From Treponema socranskii subsp. buccale (GTDB lineage Bacteria; Spirochaetota; Spirochaetia; Treponematales; Treponemataceae), in assembly GCF_024181585.1 (NCBI RefSeq), contig NZ_CP054258.1:310001-374000 (forward strand): a DNA stretch of 64,000 bases. The letters are read 5' to 3'. The position numbers and the translations under genes were made by a program. Of the stretch, positions 14,823 to 24,976 are shown one piece after another; the first letter of the stretch is position 1, and every line of letters starts with the position of its first letter. The notes under the pieces were generated by a model that was not told the origin of the DNA, ran no database searches, and saw only the letters and a list, made by a program, of their open reading frames with translations.

Positions 14823-16943
14823 CTACCTTCCGAACAACCCCTTAAGCGCGCCGGCGGCTTTTTGTACGGCGTCGCTTCCGGTTTGGCCTGCGAGCTGTTT
14901 GAGTATGTCCCGCTGCGCTTTTTCGAGCGCGGCGTTTATATCGCCGAAATTCGCTTCCTGCAATTTGATGCCGTTTTGAATATCCGTAAGCTTTGCGATT
15001 TCTGCCGAAACGCCGCCCGTTTTTTCGGCAAGCAGTTCGTTCACTTTTTCGCGCGCGGAAGCGGTGATCGACGCGAGTTCGGATGCGAGCATGCTTTGAA
15101 AAACGGCGGCGAAGCGTTCGGCCGCATCGGTGTCGAGCGAAAGCGTAACGCCCGATTCGAGTGCATAGCCTGCGGTAAAGCCGACTTTGAGCGCGGTAAA
15201 GCGTTCCGTCGCTTTGCGGTAGATTTCGTATACGGGAGCGGGTTCGAAAGACGGAGTTGCGATTTTCATACCGCTCATATCGATTGCACCCTGCACGCGA
15301 AAGCTTCCGTCGTCATCACCGAGTACGGTACACGAAAGGGCGGACGAGTGCGCGGCAAGCGAATATGCGTCGTCGATTTTCAGTGAAAGCGGAAAACCCG
15401 ATCCGCTGTACTTTGCGAACAAAAGCGGATTATCCGTTTTGCGTCTCCCGTCGATAACGGCGCTTATCGCGTTGTCGATTCCTTTAACGGCGAAAGCGGC
15501 GGAAAGCTCTGCGGGCTTTCCGCGCTTGTCGGGATCGCTTGAAACTTCTTTTGCCGACATGCTCCAGTTTGCACCGGAGCCGTACGCTTTTTCGATTAAA
15601 AACTTCGGAACGGTATCGTTTTTATAATAGATATCCGTGCCCTTCATGCGTCGCGAAACTTTTTTCGCTTTCTTTTTTGCAGGCTTCGGTGCAGCTTTGC
15701 TTTTAAATTGAAGGGCCGTATCGATTCCTTTTTGCACGTAGGGATAATACGTGCCGAAAAGATTGTACATAAACGCCGTAAGCACTTTGTTGAAGACGCC
15801 GCCGATGCCGTCGTTTTTGAGCGTTTTGAATTTGACAATCTCTTTGTCGATGAGCGCTTTGTCGGACGCGATCGCAGCCCCGATTTCTTTCGAAAGCCGC
15901 TCGGCCTTTTCGGTATCGCTTTTGAAGTCCGCCCCGATTTTTTCAGTCTGCGTTTTTATGTTTTTTCCCTGCACGACGGCGGCGTTGATCGCATCGAGCG
16001 CTTCTTTTAATTTTACGGGATCTTTTACGCCCGCCCAATCGGTTTTGATAAGAGTATCGACGGAACTTGAAAATTCGCGAATCGATTTTTCCATCGACTG
16101 GGGCGTATCCTTCCACTTTGCGACCGTCTCTTCGATCGCGGTCTTTGTGCTTTCCGCCATCGCCGGAGATTTCAAATTGCTTTCGACGTTTTCAATAATC
16201 GTTTGAGGATTGTATTCGGCAAAGGTATCGGAAAGCGTTTTTTGCACGTCGGCAAGGAGCGCCTTTTGCATGTCGGCGATGCGGCTTTCGTTTTGTTTTT
16301 CTTCGCGCTTTTGTTTTATCGGAATATAGCCGGACGTCTTCCGCTCGGTACCGATGAGCACGTCCGCGACGGTGATGTTTTCCGTGTCGAATTTGCCGCG
16401 CAGCAGTTCGGTCAAATTGAAATCGAACGTGATTTCCCCGACTTGAAAGATGTTTTTCATCACATCGTTTTTGTTTGCCTGCTGCAAATCTTTTATCGTA
16501 AGCTTTGCGCCGAATATTTGAAAATCGAGGTAACCGATGTCGGCTTTTGCTTGGAAAGCGCTTTGCATTCCCGCGACGATCGCGCGCTTTACGATGATGT
16601 TTTTAAACATACCGACAACGACGCAGACGGCGACTATGGCACCGATGAGGGCGGCAAGCGGAATAAGCTTGACGCCGAATTTCTGCTGCCGTATTTCTTT
16701 TGCGATAGTTTTAAGGCGGATAAAATCCGCTTTGACGATTTCCGAATTTTTCGGAATGCGGACGCTGCCCGTTTTATCCGCATCGGCGGTAAAATAATTA
16801 TTAATAAATTCTTTATCCGCCGCTACGTATATTTTTTTCAGTATTTTCTTTTCGAATTGCTTTTGCGTATAAGATTTTTTTAACAATCCGGGGAGTTTTT
16901 TTGCGGGAACGGTTTTTTGCGTTTCAGCGACTGTTGTTTTCAT
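14823..16943 (-). CDS. TIGR03545-family envelope protein
   Basis: A 706-residue protein with a cytoplasmic N-terminus of about 90 residues, one membrane helix (LIPLAALIGAIVAVCVVVGM, about 93-112) and a long periplasmic part. The latter begins with an AsmA-like stretch (GYLDFQIFGAKLTIKDLQ; VGEITFDFNLTELLRGKFDTENITVADVLIG), then a long coiled-coil (about 200-400) and a beta-rich region. This matches TIGR03545, a family found only in bacteria with outer membranes and usually next to TIGR03546, as here (2 bp apart). The AsmA-like start suggests a role in lipid or outer-membrane traffic; that is inference. The start is the ATG directly after the partner gene. Confidence 0.8.
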   Translation of the reverse strand: MKTTVAETQKTVPAKKLPGLLKKSYTQKQFEKKILKKIYVAADKEFINNYFTADADKTGSVRIPKNSEIVKADFIRLKTIAKEIRQQKFGVKLIPLAALIGAIVAVCVVVGMFKNIIVKRAIVAGMQSAFQAKADIGYLDFQIFGAKLTIKDLQQANKNDVMKNIFQVGEITFDFNLTELLRGKFDTENITVADVLIGTERKTSGYIPIKQKREEKQNESRIADMQKALLADVQKTLSDTFAEYNPQTIIENVESNLKSPAMAESTKTAIEETVAKWKDTPQSMEKSIREFSSSVDTLIKTDWAGVKDPVKLKEALDAINAAVVQGKNIKTQTEKIGADFKSDTEKAERLSKEIGAAIASDKALIDKEIVKFKTLKNDGIGGVFNKVLTAFMYNLFGTYYPYVQKGIDTALQFKSKAAPKPAKKKAKKVSRRMKGTDIYYKNDTVPKFLIEKAYGSGANWSMSAKEVSSDPDKRGKPAELSAAFAVKGIDNAISAVIDGRRKTDNPLLFAKYSGSGFPLSLKIDDAYSLAAHSSALSCTVLGDDDGSFRVQGAIDMSGMKIATPSFEPAPVYEIYRKATERFTALKVGFTAGYALESGVTLSLDTDAAERFAAVFQSMLASELASITASAREKVNELLAEKTGGVSAEIAKLTDIQNGIKLQEANFGDINAALEKAQRDILKQLAGQTGSDAVQKAAGALKGLFGR

Positions 16944-19088: not shown

Positions 19089-19991
19089 ATGGGAGTGCCT
19101 CTCGTAGAAAAATGTAAAAAATATTTTGCCGAACTTACCGAAGCGTCGCGCGCCGCGGCAAAGATCGATGAAGAAAACGTATATCAGGAAGCGAATCCCC
19201 TTACTCGGAAAATTATGGACGAATTGCTGTCGGAAATCATGCTGCCGGGTTCGGGAATCGTTAATATCGAAAATTTCAAAGCTTTTTACCGTGCGATAAC
19301 CGAAGAAGGCAAAAGCGGCCTCATTTTGATGGAACACTATACGAACCTCGATTTGCCCGCCATCTGTTATCTCCTCGATCATGCGGGAGAGGAGTGGGCG
19401 AGGGATTTGTCGAAGCGGATCGTCGCCGTCGCCGGCATGAAGCTCAACGAAGAAAGCCCCATCGTGCGCGCGTGGGCGGAAGGCTTTACGCGAGTGGTCA
19501 TCTATCCGACGCGCAGTCTCGATAAAGTCGCAGCGAACGCGCAGTTGGAAACGGAAATCGAAGAAGAAAAAAAGCGTGCGCGCAAAATCAATTTGGCGGC
19601 GATGCACGCTATGGACGATTGCAAAAAAAGAGGCCAGACGATACTCGTGTTTCCGAGCGGCACGCGCTACAGGCCGGGCAAGCCCGAAACGAAACGCGGC
19701 CTGCGCGAAATCGACAGCTATCTGCGCCTCTTCGACGTCATGTTGCTCGTGTCGATCAACGGCAACTGCCTCCGCATCAATCCGGAAGCGCCCGACAATA
19801 TGATGATGGATTTAATTGAAAACGATAAAATTACGCTGTCGGCGTCTCCCGTCATCGATTGCAAACAGTTTCGGCGCGACGTGCTCGCGAGTTTGCCGGA
19901 AACCGAAGAAGACGCAAAGCAAAAGATCGTCGACCGCGTCATGGCGATTTTGGAAGAGCAGCACGAAGCGGCGGAAGCGGGACGAAAGTAG
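19089..19991 (+). CDS. 1-acylglycerol-3-phosphate acyltransferase-like protein (PlsC superfamily)
   Basis: A 300-residue glycerolipid acyltransferase-fold protein. HYTNLD (83-88) is the catalytic HxxxxD block and FPSGTR (188-193) replaces the usual FPEGTR of the substrate-binding block, with R133-V and YPTR around 140 as the intermediate block. There is no clear membrane helix. The family transfers acyl groups to (lyso)phosphatidate; the exact acceptor is uncertain. AGGAG nine bases upstream fixes the start. The gene stands alone after a good promoter. Confidence 0.85.
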   Translation: MGVPLVEKCKKYFAELTEASRAAAKIDEENVYQEANPLTRKIMDELLSEIMLPGSGIVNIENFKAFYRAITEEGKSGLILMEHYTNLDLPAICYLLDHAGEEWARDLSKRIVAVAGMKLNEESPIVRAWAEGFTRVVIYPTRSLDKVAANAQLETEIEEEKKRARKINLAAMHAMDDCKKRGQTILVFPSGTRYRPGKPETKRGLREIDSYLRLFDVMLLVSINGNCLRINPEAPDNMMMDLIENDKITLSASPVIDCKQFRRDVLASLPETEEDAKQKIVDRVMAILEEQHEAAEAGRK

Positions 19992-20142: not shown

Positions 20143-20736
20143 TTAATTAAGCCTAAAAGAATAATTCGGAAATTCCATCTTATGTAAACAATTGATAAAA
20201 TCTTTTATGTATTTATTATTATCTTTGTGCGTGTCTTCTATGCAATCGATATACATTTCAATAAATACATTTTTTTCTTCACATTTCATGTATGCGATTT
20301 GTTGATAATGACCGTGTCCTTCTTTTTTCTTTAAGTCGTATAATTTATATTGCCATTTATTCAATTGAGTCGAATACTCGGCCGAACCGATTTTTGTTAA
20401 TTTATAATCGGGCAGATAGTCGTTTAGATTTTTAATCATATCCGATTCGAATTTTTCCAATGTAAAATCTTTCGGCGGAAAATACAGCTTTACATTTATA
20501 TACACGGGAGTTTCATTCATACCGTATTCTTTTATAAAAAATACTCCGTTAATGCCGTATCGTGCTGCGGCGTTCATATCTACCATCCAATAATTCGGAA
20601 GAGGAATACTTAATAAAAAATTATCGCCGTATATTGAGAATGCCAGCAGTTCTTCATCTTTGTCTTTTGCCGAAATTGATATTGCGATTTGTAAAAGCAC
20701 TGATACCAAAATAAAAATTCGATTTATTTTCTTCAT
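20143..20736 (-). CDS. Secreted hypothetical protein
   Basis: A 197-residue protein with signal peptide MKKINRIFILVSVLLQIAIS then ISAKDKD. The mature part has the alternating pattern of a PsbP/lipoprotein-like alpha-beta sandwich (FLLSIPLPNYWMVDMN; PVYINVKLYFPP; ...CLHKMEF), suggesting a small binding domain, but no family can be named. GGGGG seven bases upstream fixes the start. It lies 11 bp after the DUF2442 gene in AT-rich DNA, so it may belong to the same acquired block. Confidence 0.65.
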   Translation of the reverse strand: MKKINRIFILVSVLLQIAISISAKDKDEELLAFSIYGDNFLLSIPLPNYWMVDMNAAARYGINGVFFIKEYGMNETPVYINVKLYFPPKDFTLEKFESDMIKNLNDYLPDYKLTKIGSAEYSTQLNKWQYKLYDLKKKEGHGHYQQIAYMKCEEKNVFIEMYIDCIEDTHKDNNKYIKDFINCLHKMEFPNYSFRLN

Positions 20737-20747
20737 TTATTCCCCCT

Positions 20748-21062
20748 TTATGTTTTTTTCATTTGTGCATCGGTTACCTCCGGACATTCCTCAGTAACTA
20801 CGGGTTTAGCTGAATTTATGATTTTCCCATACTCGTAAATAGAATCACTTGCTAAATCAATTCTATCATTCCAATATACACAAGTACGGCTTTCATCAAG
20901 CGCGAATTGTTTCCATAAACCTTTTATTGATATTAAGTCCTTAAAGTCAGGAATCTGATTTATATCTTCATTAACATCGTAAAGGACACGCCTTCCATCA
21001 TCAAAGAGAACTTCTAATTTATAGTCATTTCTATCAATAATTGATTTAATTCTTGGAATCAT
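20748..21062 (-). CDS. DUF2442-domain protein
   Basis: A 104-residue cytoplasmic protein matching DUF2442: YKLEVLFDDGRRVLYDVNE, then LISIKGLWKQFALDESRTCVYW and NDRIDLASDSIYEYG. DUF2442 genes usually follow a DUF4160 gene, as here with a 3-bp gap, and the pair has been proposed to be toxin-antitoxin-like. GGAG seven bases upstream supports the start. Part of the AT-rich accessory block. Function of the pair is not proven. Confidence 0.85.
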   Translation of the reverse strand: MIPRIKSIIDRNDYKLEVLFDDGRRVLYDVNEDINQIPDFKDLISIKGLWKQFALDESRTCVYWNDRIDLASDSIYEYGKIINSAKPVVTEECPEVTDAQMKKT

Positions 21063-21065
21063 ATT

Positions 21066-21320
21066 CTACTCCAATGGAGCTAATTTCACGATAGTTTGAG
21101 TATCCCACATTTTTTGAAGTTCTTTATCATGTATGCTTAACCATTCTTTAACTAAGTTTTGAGCTTTTGATGGTAAATCGCCGTTTGTCATTTTATGTGT
21201 TTTCAAATCAAAAACACCGACATATTCACCATACAAAGCATGGATATGAGATGGTTCATGTTCCTTCAGTTTGAAGAACATCTTTATGACAATCCCATAA
21301 AATCGTGAAATCTCCGGCAT
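21066..21320 (-). CDS. DUF4160-domain protein
   Basis: An 84-residue protein with the DUF4160 core MPEISRFYGIVIKMFF, HEPSHIHALYGEYVGVFDL and VKEWLSIHDKELQKMW. The conserved EPSHIHAxYG block, rich in His, is typical. It is first in a two-gene unit with DUF2442, probably a TA-like module. GAGG seven bases upstream supports the start. It lies about 80 bp past the attC-like site that follows hicB. Confidence 0.85.
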   Translation of the reverse strand: MPEISRFYGIVIKMFFKLKEHEPSHIHALYGEYVGVFDLKTHKMTNGDLPSKAQNLVKEWLSIHDKELQKMWDTQTIVKLAPLE

Positions 21321-21397
21321 TTTAAACCTCTACTGCTTATACTATAAGCGATTTTTACCTATAAAGCAACATTTTAAAATATTATTTCGTGTTTTTT

Positions 21398-21454
21398 GAT
21401 TACTCCCCATAGCCGGCATCGCATAGCAATATCAGGTTGAAGCGGGTGTTAGGT
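21398..21454 (-). other. Integron attC-like site after hicB
   Basis: Read on the minus strand, the site starts with ACCTAAC, an exact match to the integron R'' box RYYYAAC, directly after the hicB stop codon. It continues ACCCGCTTCAACC, has a central GCTATGCGATGC, and ends in a degenerate complement (GGCTATGGGGAGTAATC) of the first arm. The imperfect palindrome, size (57 bp) and position after the gene fit an attC recombination site. The distal R' box is eroded. Confidence 0.6.
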
Positions 21455-21478
21455 TTACCAAATAGTTTTTACATCATA
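21454..21478. repeat. 25-nt direct repeat, copy 1 (3' end of hicB)
   Basis: These 25 bases are identical to 22899-22923 at the 3' end of vapC and encode the last seven codons and stop of both genes. The repeat abuts the attC-like site here and is separated from the other attC-like site by nine bases. Confidence 0.85.
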
Positions 21479-21829
21479 TGACATCTTTAGTGATTCACGT
21501 ATTACTTCTTGCTCGACTGCTTTTTGTATGAATTGATTTAATGATATACCTTGCATTACCGATAACAGTTTCGCCTTTTTATGCAACTCCGGCGCAATAC
21601 GAACATTAAAACTGCCTTTGTATGATTTCTCTATTCTTTTACCGCTCGCTTTACATAAAATTATGTAATCATTTACAGCTTCTTCAAAGGCTTGTTTCAA
21701 TTCACTGACCGTATTTCCTTCAAAAGACACCAGATCGTCAATGCCTTCTATTTTTCCGAAAAAGATTTCATCAGCGGCATTGAAATGAACGGAACCTATA
21801 AAATCTTTATACTGTAAGATATCTTTCAT
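21455..21829 (-). CDS. hicB: Type II antitoxin, HicB family
   Basis: A 124-residue antitoxin with the HicB partial RNase H-like fold (FIGSVHFNAADEIFFGKIEGIDDLVSFEGNTVSELKQAFEEAVNDY) and a C-terminal ribbon-helix-helix (GSFNVRIAPELHKKAKLLSVMQGISLNQFIQKAVEQEV) for operator binding. Its start overlaps the hicA stop (ATGA). The last seven residues YDVKTIW are identical to those of VapC 1.4 kb away, encoded by a 25-nt repeat that touches the attC-like site, so the 3' end may have been exchanged. Stop is immediately followed by the attC R'' box. Confidence 0.92.
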   Translation of the reverse strand: MKDILQYKDFIGSVHFNAADEIFFGKIEGIDDLVSFEGNTVSELKQAFEEAVNDYIILCKASGKRIEKSYKGSFNVRIAPELHKKAKLLSVMQGISLNQFIQKAVEQEVIRESLKMSYDVKTIW

Positions 21830-22083
21830 ATTAATCCTCTTGTTGTCAGTTCTTCTACAAGTTGCTCTATTTGGTATTGTTTTAATACATTTTTAGGATG
21901 CGGTTTATGAAGCCGAATAATGTGCCCCGTTTTTTCATTAAAAAACGCTACTCGAGAACCTGACGTTTTCCCACTTTGACTTTCTTTATAGCCCAGTTTT
22001 CCTAATAATTTCCTTAATTCATCATATGTAAAATCAACCGGTTTATTTAAAAGCCTTTTTATAAGTTTTTCTTTTTGGCTCAT
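21826..22083 (-). CDS. hicA: Type II toxin, HicA family
   Basis: An 85-residue mRNA interferase with the double-stranded RNA-binding-like HicA fold: TYDELRKLLGKLGYKESQSGKTSGSRVAFF, then IIRLHKPHPKNVLKQYQIEQLVEEL. It belongs to the SGSRV branch, where Arg replaces the catalytic His of the GSHH form, with the later LHKPHP His pair conserved. It precedes hicB with a four-base overlap, so the order toxin-antitoxin is standard for HicAB. No good ribosome site is visible upstream. Confidence 0.92.
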   Translation of the reverse strand: MSQKEKLIKRLLNKPVDFTYDELRKLLGKLGYKESQSGKTSGSRVAFFNEKTGHIIRLHKPHPKNVLKQYQIEQLVEELTTRGLI

Positions 22084-22105
22084 ATCTAATAATACTGCAC
22101 ATATG

Positions 22106-22327
22106 TTATAATTGCAACTGTTTTTTGGTTGTAATTATAAGCTGCTGTAGTAATCCTCTTTTTTTTCGACAGCGCGCCACGATTTCAGGTACTAAACGGT
22201 GCTGTATATTAATCTTTCTTAAATATTTTCCCGTCTTTTCATAAGGCAGAGGGCTTTGAAAAGGATTATTTCTTATAACTTCAATCAAGTCTTTTAGTGT
22301 CTGTGTTGAATTTATTAAATCAATATT
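22106..22327 (-). pseudogene. Truncated YoeB/Txe-like toxin remnant
   Basis: About 74 codons resemble the C-terminal half of YoeB/Txe RNases: LKDLIEVIRNNPFQSP then YLRKINIQHRLVPEIV, compared with the family pattern LI..I..NPF.G...SRRIN..HRLVY. There is no start codon after the upstream stop at 22328-22330, and the C-terminal active-site segment is lost into unrelated codons. No antitoxin gene is left. It is a decayed cassette gene in the TA block. Confidence 0.6.
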
Positions 22328-22338
22328 TTAAAAATATG

Positions 22339-22674
22339 TTAATTTATTTTTCTAATAATTAACTCAACTAATAAAGTTAATAAGCTACCAATGATAACTG
22401 ACAGCAAAGATAAAACAATACTATCTTTCTGCCTAACAAAAAAATTCCTACAATTTCTATATGAAATCGAATTTCACTTATATATATTTCAAATTTTTCG
22501 ACTTTTTTCTGAAAATTTTTCTATTTCTTCTCTATTCTCTAGCTCAAAATTATTTATTGTTATTTTATATTTAAATCCGTTCTCTTGAATTATATCTGGT
22601 AAATCATTAATTTCATCTAAATATAACTTTGAGTATTTATAATATTTTAAATCCCTTGAATTTTGCTTTATCAT
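22339..22674 (-). pseudogene. Frameshifted membrane-anchored hypothetical gene
   Basis: The first 61 codons (MIKQNSRDLKYYKYSKLY...) end in a frameshift at an A-run near 22490; the reading then continues in another frame (KVEKFEIYISEIRFHIEIVGIF) and, after a second shift near 22430, as a clear membrane helix IVLSLLSVIIGSLLTLLVEL before a stop. The continuous coding pattern across frames indicates a broken gene for a small C-tail-anchored protein of about 110 residues. Its AT content matches the accessory block. Family unknown. Confidence 0.5.
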
Positions 22675-22831
22675 AATTATTTCCGAGAGTCTTCTAAATT
22701 GTACATATAATATTTTTTACCTTTTTCTCTTTATATCATAAAGAAATACTACTTTTCTATCTAGACTGATACAAAACAAAAAAATAAATTTTTCAAGCAT
22801 AATAATGAAAAAGTTACCCACCGGGCAACCG

Positions 22832-22890
22832 GTATAACATTCGCTTAAACGCATCGCATAGCAAACGTCAGGTTGAAGCGGGTGTTAGTT
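22832..22890 (-). other. Integron attC-like site after vapC
   Basis: Read on the minus strand, a 59-bp imperfect palindrome starts AACTAACACCCGCTTCAAC and ends GTTTAAGCGAATGTTATAC, i.e. R''-like, L'', a central GCTATGCGATGC, L' (GTTTAAGC) and R'-like (GTTRRRY form with one mismatch). The arms are complementary at 13 of 17 positions. It begins nine bases after the vapC stop and shares about 35 bases with the site after hicB. Confidence 0.65.
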
Positions 22891-22898
22891 TCATATCT

Positions 22899-22923
22899 TT
22901 TACCAAATAGTTTTTACATCATA
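22899..22923. repeat. 25-nt direct repeat, copy 2 (3' end of vapC)
   Basis: Identical to 21454-21478; it encodes the C-terminal YDVKTIW and stop codon of VapC, the same end as HicB. Confidence 0.85.
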
Positions 22924-23289
22924 CAACGAAATATTTCCGTCCGTAGTTACGATTGTTAAATCATTTTCAAGTGCTTGTGAGATTAGAATTCTGTCAAATG
23001 GATCATTATGTCTTACATTATCTTGAAACGGCAAATTTCTAATCCTGTTGAAATCATCAAGTGTAATCGGAAGTTTTCTAAATCCTGCTCGTCTACACAT
23101 CTCATCTATTTCATATACAGTATGAGTAAATTCCAATTTTTTCTTGCTTTGTTTTATTGAAATCTCCCAAAATGAGGCATAACTGTAAAAACAAACATTA
23201 GAGTCAATTATATCTTTAGCACTTTTCGACAATCGATCATTCCCGAATAAATACCAAAGAATTGTATGCGTGTCGAGCAAATACTTCAT
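22900..23289 (-). CDS. vapC: PIN-domain toxin, VapC family
   Basis: A 129-residue PIN ribonuclease. The acidic active-site residues are visible in LLDTHTILW (Asp6), WEISIK (Glu43), NDPFDRILISQAL (Asp97) and TTD near 117. It is the toxin of the module with the upstream 70-residue antitoxin gene, whose stop overlaps its ATG (TAATG). The gene ends in the same seven codons as hicB, followed by an attC-like site, as for an integron cassette. Confidence 0.92.
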   Translation of the reverse strand: MKYLLDTHTILWYLFGNDRLSKSAKDIIDSNVCFYSYASFWEISIKQSKKKLEFTHTVYEIDEMCRRAGFRKLPITLDDFNRIRNLPFQDNVRHNDPFDRILISQALENDLTIVTTDGNISLYDVKTIW

Positions 23290-23501
23290 TACACATATTC
23301 CGAAAAATCTTCGAGAGGGTCATCAAAATCCGGAGACATATAAAAAGGCTCATTTTTCCAAACGCCAAAAAGAGATTTTTTTTCGGAAACAGAATCGTCC
23401 TCAGGGAATTTCAATTTTATCAAGCGGATAAAATCAACAACCTCACTTATTGCAGCAGGAGGAAGCGTTGCGATTTCTTTTTCTAAAGCTGTATAAGGCA
23501 T
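23289..23501 (-). CDS. VapB-type antitoxin (DUF2281-like)
   Basis: A 70-residue protein: an N-terminal helical segment (MPYTALEKEIATLPPAAISEVVDFIRLIKLK) similar to DUF2281-type antitoxins and an acidic C-terminus (YMSPDFDDPLEDFSEYV) suited to wrap the toxin. It precedes vapC with a one-base overlap. The ATG at 23501 has GGGAGG five bases upstream; another in-frame ATG at 23513 has no ribosome site. It is the promoter-proximal gene of the pair. Confidence 0.85.
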   Translation of the reverse strand: MPYTALEKEIATLPPAAISEVVDFIRLIKLKFPEDDSVSEKKSLFGVWKNEPFYMSPDFDDPLEDFSEYV

Positions 23502-23843
23502 ATGACCTCCCATACAATTCTATTATATTATACATTCATAAAATTTTCCAGATCTTATCGGTGTAAGAAAATAGCGGGCTTGACCTGCCGTACAAAAGTA
23601 CCATGTTATCTAATTGTTCTTAATTCTCGGGCGAAGCCTCATGTAAAACAAGCCCGCTTCTTCTTCCGAAACAGCCCATTTTTTATTTTTACTTTCCTAA
23701 AAGCGGATCGGTGCATCGAAAAAAATGCCCGTATATTCATAAAAAAGATACCCCGCCTTTTATCCGGCGGGGTTATTTATTTTACACAAGGTCGGTGGAG
23801 TCCCCTTTCCTCAAGCATACTGCGGGGTACGGGGCCTCTGTCT
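23502..23843. other. Intergenic region between vapB and the repeat lipoprotein gene
   Basis: No gene is seen. It contains a 10-bp inverted repeat AGCGGGCTTG (23573-23582) / CAAGCCCGCT (23649-23658) 66 bases apart, possibly another eroded recombination site or terminator of antisense transcription, and the terminator at 23741-23772. It marks the right edge of the AT-rich block. Confidence 0.5.
23741..23772 (-). terminator. Terminator of the repeat lipoprotein gene
   Basis: On the minus strand a 7-bp stem CCCCGCC / GGCGGGG with an 8-base loop is followed by TATCTTTTTT. It lies about 70 bp past the stop at 23844. Confidence 0.75.
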
Positions 23844-24818
23844 CTACTGCCGGAGCGCTGTATCCGTACTGACGATAACGGTGCCGTGCTTTCCTGCCGC
23901 TATCCACGCGGTGCCGTTACAGGCGACGCCGTATAGGTCGTTTTCCGTTCCGCTCGGCTTCGTCGCCCACGTATTGCCGTTGTCCGTACTGACGATGACG
24001 ATGCCGTTCTCGCCTACCGCTACCCACGTGGTACCCTTACAGGCGACAGAGAACAGTTTTTTTCCCGTACCGCTCGACTTTGTCGCCCACGTATTGCCGT
24101 TGTCCGTGCTGACGATAACGGTGCCCTTATCGCCCACCGCTACCCACGTGGTACCGTTACAGGCGACGCCGAGCAGGTAGTCCGTCGTACCGCTCGACTT
24201 TGTCGTCCACTTCTCGCCGTTGTCCGTACTGGCGATGACGGAGCCATCCTGTCCTACCGCTATCCACGTGCTATCGTTATAAGCGACGCCTTCCCGTATG
24301 TGATAATTAACCTTGTTCTTGTTATTCCAGTTAGCACCGTTGTCCGTACTGACTAATATGACACCGCTGGTTCCTACCGCTATCCACGTGTTACCCTTAC
24401 AGGCGACACCCTTGCAATTCTGCTCCGTGCTTTCACCGATCGTCGTTTTTTCCGTCCACGTTTTGCCGTCGTCCTGGCTGGCGGTGACGGTGTAGCCTGC
24501 GCCCGACGCTACCCACGCGGTACCGTTATAAACAACATCGCACAGCCATTTTTTCGTATCTTTCTTCTTTTTCATCCACGTGTCGCCGTTATTCGTACTG
24601 ACGATGACGTCCTCGCCCAGTCCTACCGCCATCCACGTGTTACCCTTACAGGCGATGCCGCGTAGGTCCTCCGTCGTCCCGCTCTCCTTACTTACCCAGC
24701 CGCTTGTTACAGTGCCTGTGTCATCGTGATGGATGTTGCCGCATGAAATGATGTTGACGAGTACAAACAGACTCATCAGACCGCCTGAAATCTTTGTCCA
24801 CAGTTGTTTTCTTTGCAT
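23844..24818 (-). CDS. Lipoprotein with about seven Ycf48/BNR-like beta-propeller repeats
   Basis: A 324-residue exported protein. The signal peptide ends in VNIISC, a spirochaete-style lipobox, so it should be lipidated. The mature part is about seven repeats of roughly 40 residues with the pattern GVACKGxTWVAVGxxGxVIVSTDNGxTWxxKSSGT, like BNR/Ycf48 propeller blades. The repeats are also alike in DNA (about 120-bp period), so copy number may vary by slippage. The last repeat is cut short after VSTD. GGAGG four bases before ATG 24818 fixes the start. Surface or periplasmic; ligand unknown. Confidence 0.8.
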   Translation of the reverse strand: MQRKQLWTKISGGLMSLFVLVNIISCGNIHHDDTGTVTSGWVSKESGTTEDLRGIACKGNTWMAVGLGEDVIVSTNNGDTWMKKKKDTKKWLCDVVYNGTAWVASGAGYTVTASQDDGKTWTEKTTIGESTEQNCKGVACKGNTWIAVGTSGVILVSTDNGANWNNKNKVNYHIREGVAYNDSTWIAVGQDGSVIASTDNGEKWTTKSSGTTDYLLGVACNGTTWVAVGDKGTVIVSTDNGNTWATKSSGTGKKLFSVACKGTTWVAVGENGIVIVSTDNGNTWATKPSGTENDLYGVACNGTAWIAAGKHGTVIVSTDTALRQ

Positions 24819-24976
24819 AAAACCTCCGTTCTTTCCGTACATAACCGATTTTATACCGGCGGCGCGTGGCAGCCGAAATCGCCTGTCGATCGCCCGTCGG
24901 TCGTTAAAGAAAATCAATTTTTATGTCCGCTATTTAAACAACTTCCGAAGAAGACAGATACAGGATGCAGAGAACG

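Follow-up and report, generated by a model that had tools for sequence, protein, structure and literature searches.

The window analysed here is a stretch of 64,000 nucleotides of Treponema socranskii subsp. buccale (positions 310001-374000 within a single contig of 2,805,741 bases), and a 3.4-kb block of gene modules and gene remnants lies at its positions 20143-23515. Composition analysis confirmed the AT-rich block described in an earlier note on this DNA, because its GC content was 31.3% vs 49.3% across the remaining window, and GC was at least 40% in every other non-overlapping window stretch of block length. The annotated genes of the block are on the minus strand in every case, in the order vapB, vapC, an attC-like site (attC1), the remnant of a 225-aa gene, a yoeB fragment, hicA, hicB, half an attC site (attC2), DUF4160, DUF2442 and a gene for a 197-aa protein (Table 1). 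The intact modules are VapBC, HicAB and DUF4160/DUF2442 (DhiT/DhiA-like), whose claimed identity was supported by Pfam and NCBIfam matches. Of the two genes that had been noted as decayed, one proved to be a partial YoeB toxin gene and the other what a deletion has left of the 225-aa open reading frame, a membrane-protein gene.

Table 1 Features of the AT-rich block, in window coordinates
Feature	Position	Strand	Evidence
vapB antitoxin (DUF2281)	23289..23513	-	Pfam DUF2281 45.1 bits, above cut-off; NCBIfam TA_VapB 55.8 bits, slightly below its cut-off of 60
vapC toxin (PIN domain), end ...YDVKTIW*	22900..23289	-	Pfam PIN 44.7 bits, above cut-off
attC1, one complete attC-like site	22832..22890	-	attC covariance model, fold, arm test
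Remnant of 225-aa gene	22489..22674	-	blastn and ORFs; about 300 bp missing vs intact subsp. paredis copy (L026:11861-12538)
yoeB toxin gene fragment	22106..22288	-	NCBIfam Txe/YoeB 25 bits; profile positions 26-66 only
hicA toxin	21826..22083	-	Pfam HicA_toxin 31.8 bits, above cut-off
hicB antitoxin, last 10 codons KMSYDVKTIW	21455..21829	-	Pfam HicB 67.3 bits; sister hicB ORFs; junction sequences
attC2, left half only (ACCTAACACCCGCTTCAACCTGATATTGCTATGCGATGC)	21413..21453	-	shared repeats; right half is unrelated sequence
Probable DhiT-type toxin (DUF4160)	21066..21320	-	Pfam DUF4160 65.5 bits, above cut-off; NCBIfam toxin_DhiT 83.7 bits vs cut-off 100
Probable DhiA-type antitoxin (DUF2442)	20748..21062	-	Pfam DUF2442 36.7 bits, above cut-off; antoxin_DhiA E = 0.051
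197-aa protein, signal-peptide-like start, directly downstream of dhiA	20143..20736	-	ORF; no family

The DUF4160/DUF2442 pair probably resembles the toxin-antitoxin (TA) system DhiT/DhiA, and since the DhiT match stays below its cut-off, this name is likely rather than formal. The 197-aa protein matched no family in Pfam or NCBIfam, and a PADLOC scan of the locus proteins gave no match. On the left, the block is flanked by an acyltransferase-like gene (19089-19991) that is 96-97% identical in subsp. paredis and subsp. socranskii. On the other side it is adjoined by a minus-strand gene (23844-24917) with a run of imperfect repeats of about 120 bases, resembling Ycf48-like and glycosylhydrolase-like repeat proteins.

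The earlier note had proposed two attC-like palindromes, one of 59 bp after vapC and one of 57 bp after hicB. We built an attC covariance model from eight complete sites elsewhere in the genome, aligned with the attC hairpin and its unpaired bases, and excluded the window sequence; the resulting E-values are rough. The window contained one strong match, attC1 (41.7 bits, E = 6.5e-11), while the next independent place had E = 0.14. The bottom strand of attC1 folded with a 12-bp stem at a modest z of -2.3, compared with -7.5 for an array site, and its arm pairing was equalled by just 4 of 1115 stretches of the block. Thus the palindrome after vapC held up, and by this independent model attC1 is attC-like. 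The site has the boxes R'' = AACTAAC and R' = GTTATAC, the pairing of its L-box and centre is partly lost, and it sits directly 3' of vapC in cassette orientation. So vapBC with attC1 has the make-up of an attC-bounded cassette, namely an imperfect palindrome with R''/R' boxes that follows a gene on its 3' side and shares its direction. The weaker model matches at 16718-16779 (E = 0.14) and 15143-15192 (E = 0.57) were judged to be chance, and a candidate attC upstream of vapB, picked by eye from a GCAGGTCAAGC motif near 23575-23590, was dropped because the model gave no match there.

Palindromes of this kind could also be terminators of transcription, or repeats of another sort that have nothing to do with integrons, given that attC sites are hairpins and that the centres of both window sites are unlike those of the array sites. 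But a model built from sites elsewhere recovered attC1, an Rfam scan of the locus gave zero gathering-level matches, and an intact integrase is encoded in the genome, so this explanation is hardly credible.

The site after hicB gave a different result, and only part of the claim survived. The shared repeats and the ACCTAAC and AACTAAC boxes were indeed present, with a 24-bp repeat (23/24) and an exact 14-bp repeat common to the sequences after hicB and vapC. The left half of attC2 is genuine attC, with a core, TAACACCCGCTTCAACCTGA, that is common to about a dozen genome sites. But the claimed site (about 21392-21453) had a fold z of +1.93, with 198 of 200 shuffles folding at least as well, and the left arm paired at least as well with 980 of the 1115 stretches of the block as with the right half of the site, which is chance level. 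The covariance model did not report attC2 in the window search either. The second palindrome was therefore rejected, and the attC sequence after hicB is limited to its left half.

Comparison with the sister strains suggested how this half site arose. In the window, hicB ends in ...VIRESLKMSYDVKTIW*, while the sister genes end natively in AN or TN (...VIRESLAN* in subsp. paredis and ...VIRESLTN* in subsp. socranskii). The ending YDVKTIW* also closes the neighbouring vapC, and a 25-bp stretch, TTTACCAAATAGTTTTTACATCATA, is identical at both places. Judged against its sister copies, hicB is thus chimeric, while the direction of the fusion is suggested by two sister genomes. Because sister hicB ends natively without attC and the gene in the window carries an in-frame fusion, the hicB-attC order appears to be a scar left by recombination rather than an original cassette of hicAB. 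The gene-then-attC order put forward earlier therefore applies to vapBC-attC1, but for hicAB it is a secondary fusion. Accordingly, hicAB does not form an attC-bounded cassette, with a half site that lacks the palindrome and sister hicB genes that lack attC. The same is true of dhiT-dhiA and the 197-aa gene, which had no attC model match inside or after them, so that the closing attC is absent from both the hicAB and the dhiTA segments. For the segment running from attC2 through dhiTA to the secreted-protein gene, a search of 39 genomes (its own and relatives) found no source outside its own genome.

As had been noted, profile search found no integrase gene in the window. In the genome, where a search for intI had been suggested, we found an intact gene for a 430-aa integron integrase at 1,114.6-1,115.9 kb (L017:18596-19888 (-)), approximately 782 kb from the block. 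The protein was identified by its above-cut-off TIGR02249 score alone (498.2 bits vs cut-off 265), since NF011946 matches in all 14 control genomes and was set aside, and it could be aligned to the solved structure of IntI4 (2a3v) along 313 residues. About 114 residues precede its integron-integrase domain as an N-terminal extension that had no match in a family search. The intact IntI and its adjacent array form a chromosomal integron at 1097-1116 kb, with six attC model matches at 1097.6-1109.8 kb, and integrase and array share one strand. This "reverse" orientation has been reported for Treponema (PMC3607928). The integrases of the relatives were all damaged: that of subsp. paredis is interrupted by one TAG, that of Marseille-Q4130 is broken, and subsp. 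socranskii has a fragment only. A second cassette array lies at about 2,207-2,224 kb (L010:1501-1860, L020), with a decayed C-terminal integrase fragment containing two TAA stops.

We compared the locus with one genome each of subsp. paredis and subsp. socranskii, both drafts. The hicAB genes were at the same place in both, with no attC following, and the locus adjoined the same acyltransferase gene. In subsp. paredis the 225-aa gene is whole, vapC is internally deleted, and a decayed homologue of attC1 was found at L026:12665-12723 (23.1 bits). In subsp. socranskii a larger deletion has removed most of the stretch from vapBC to yoeB. The deletions thus differ between the sister subspecies, which agrees with the word "eroded" used in the earlier note, and since the locus is kept in both with different losses, the cluster appears to be older than the subspecies split and to have decayed separately in each lineage.

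One might suppose that the block was once part of the main array and was moved by a large chromosomal rearrangement that left the integrase behind, since strand, attC family and AT-rich content are the same as in the arrays. But the acyltransferase gene neighbours the locus in both sister subspecies as well, and there are several comparable islands with one or two attC each, which would require many rearrangements. We therefore consider such a move improbable.

These islands came from the genome-wide search, in which the attC model found 21 places at E < 0.001, including the eight training sites. Nine of the 21, the window's among them, are outside the two arrays, and the seven of these that we opened were all in AT-rich islands. 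Thus further copies of the attC core occurred within the arrays and within AT-rich islands that resemble cassettes, and not in unrelated sequence, as the earlier note would have it, and of its two proposed sites the model matched attC1 but not the one after hicB. At about 1,554.0-1,554.6 kb (L141:3027-3596), yefM-yoeB stands alone in an AT-rich island with a full attC directly after its stop. The pair is kept at this locus in subsp. socranskii, where a 118-bp deletion removed the final codons of yoeB together with the attC, and in subsp. paredis the locus is occupied by different DNA. Another island, at about 252.2-255.1 kb (L144:208-3145), has iron-type ABC transporter genes that end in a full attC, with a tRNA gene next to it. 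In subsp. paredis this locus has matching flanks but contains two different genes.

TA modules can also spread, and decay, with no integron involved. The block could accordingly be an ordinary genomic island, in which repeated recombination, homologous or illegitimate, gathered TA modules, attC came along as a passenger of vapC and the integrase never acted here. A full attC occurs only once in the block, hicAB lacks a native attC in the sister strains, and the junctions resemble deletions and fusions, not G/TT cleavage. But attC1 lies directly after vapC in cassette orientation, and there are eight other attC-bearing places outside the two arrays, one of them with a precise yefM-yoeB-attC unit. 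So we regard an ordinary island as unlikely, although less so than a rearrangement. Very probably the block is a vestigial, TA-bearing cluster of integron gene cassettes outside the integron platform, formed before the subspecies split and since decayed by separate deletions.

The history of such a vestigial cluster could be as follows. Cassettes with TA genes would have been placed at the block site before T. socranskii divided into subspecies, either by the integrase at a secondary (attG-like) site or by homologous transfer, and separate deletions would then have decayed them in each lineage. In the window, a deletion or fusion would have joined a vapC-like 3' end and half an attC in frame to hicB, bringing dhiT-dhiA and the secreted-protein gene with it. 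No empty version of the block site was found in the sister genomes compared, so an integrase-mediated origin of the locus is an inference. Weak use of attC1 by IntI, whose intact gene lies far from the block in this genome, would still be conceivable in principle, and the vapBC cassette may retain some mobility.

The block belongs to an already known kind of element. Chromosomal integrons have been described in T. denticola, T. vincentii, T. succinifaciens and T. brennaborense, and in T. phagedenis the integrase was lost and attC left behind (Wu, Doak and Ye 2013, PMC3607928); T. socranskii is not among the species described in the parts of that article used here. Treponema arrays have also been found to contain TA cassettes, HicAB among them (PMC4909258). 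As far as these accounts go, the present genome is similar in IntI type, reverse orientation, attC hairpins and cassettes with HicAB or other TA genes, but the present cluster is approximately 782 kb from the intact integrase, unlike the integrons in the portions of PMC3607928 considered, and is not a complete chromosomal integron. The block is also like a CALIN, as the term is used for Xanthomonas in PMC12444791, in having cassette-like genes and attC far from an integrase and at a place that relatives share. But a CALIN usually has at least two clustered attC sites and no nearby integrase, and with one complete site and a half site the block is below that definition.

Integron cassettes have thus persisted and decayed at a great distance from the integrase in this oral spirochaete, and the subspecies are at different stages of decay. 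Cassettes are reportedly also inserted at attG sites, as is said of work by Loot and co-workers in 2024. So far as that work describes such insertion (Loot et al. 2024, Nat Microbiol 9:228), the present case is similar in having cassettes outside arrays at scattered chromosomal sites, but differs in that the junctions are eroded. The apparent exchange of cassettes at the scattered loci may be due to attG-type insertion, judging from the sequences compared. Since some of these attC loci carry different cassettes in different subspecies, they provide a natural data set for asking whether integrases insert cassettes outside attI in the wild, and they also bear on how genes gain or lose attC, an old open question of cassette origin. 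As a tentative conjecture, genomes of the T. socranskii group may have many small scattered cassette loci where cassettes are inserted or exchanged outside the attI array, as a natural form of attG-type insertion, and where genes gain or lose attC by 3' fusion or deletion; the chimera of hicB and half an attC would then illustrate the step of fusion.

In the main array, the cassette at L017:13772-14419 (-) encodes a predicted Vat-family streptogramin A O-acetyltransferase (333.9 bits vs cut-off 300), which is possibly a resistance-type gene in an integron of an oral treponeme.
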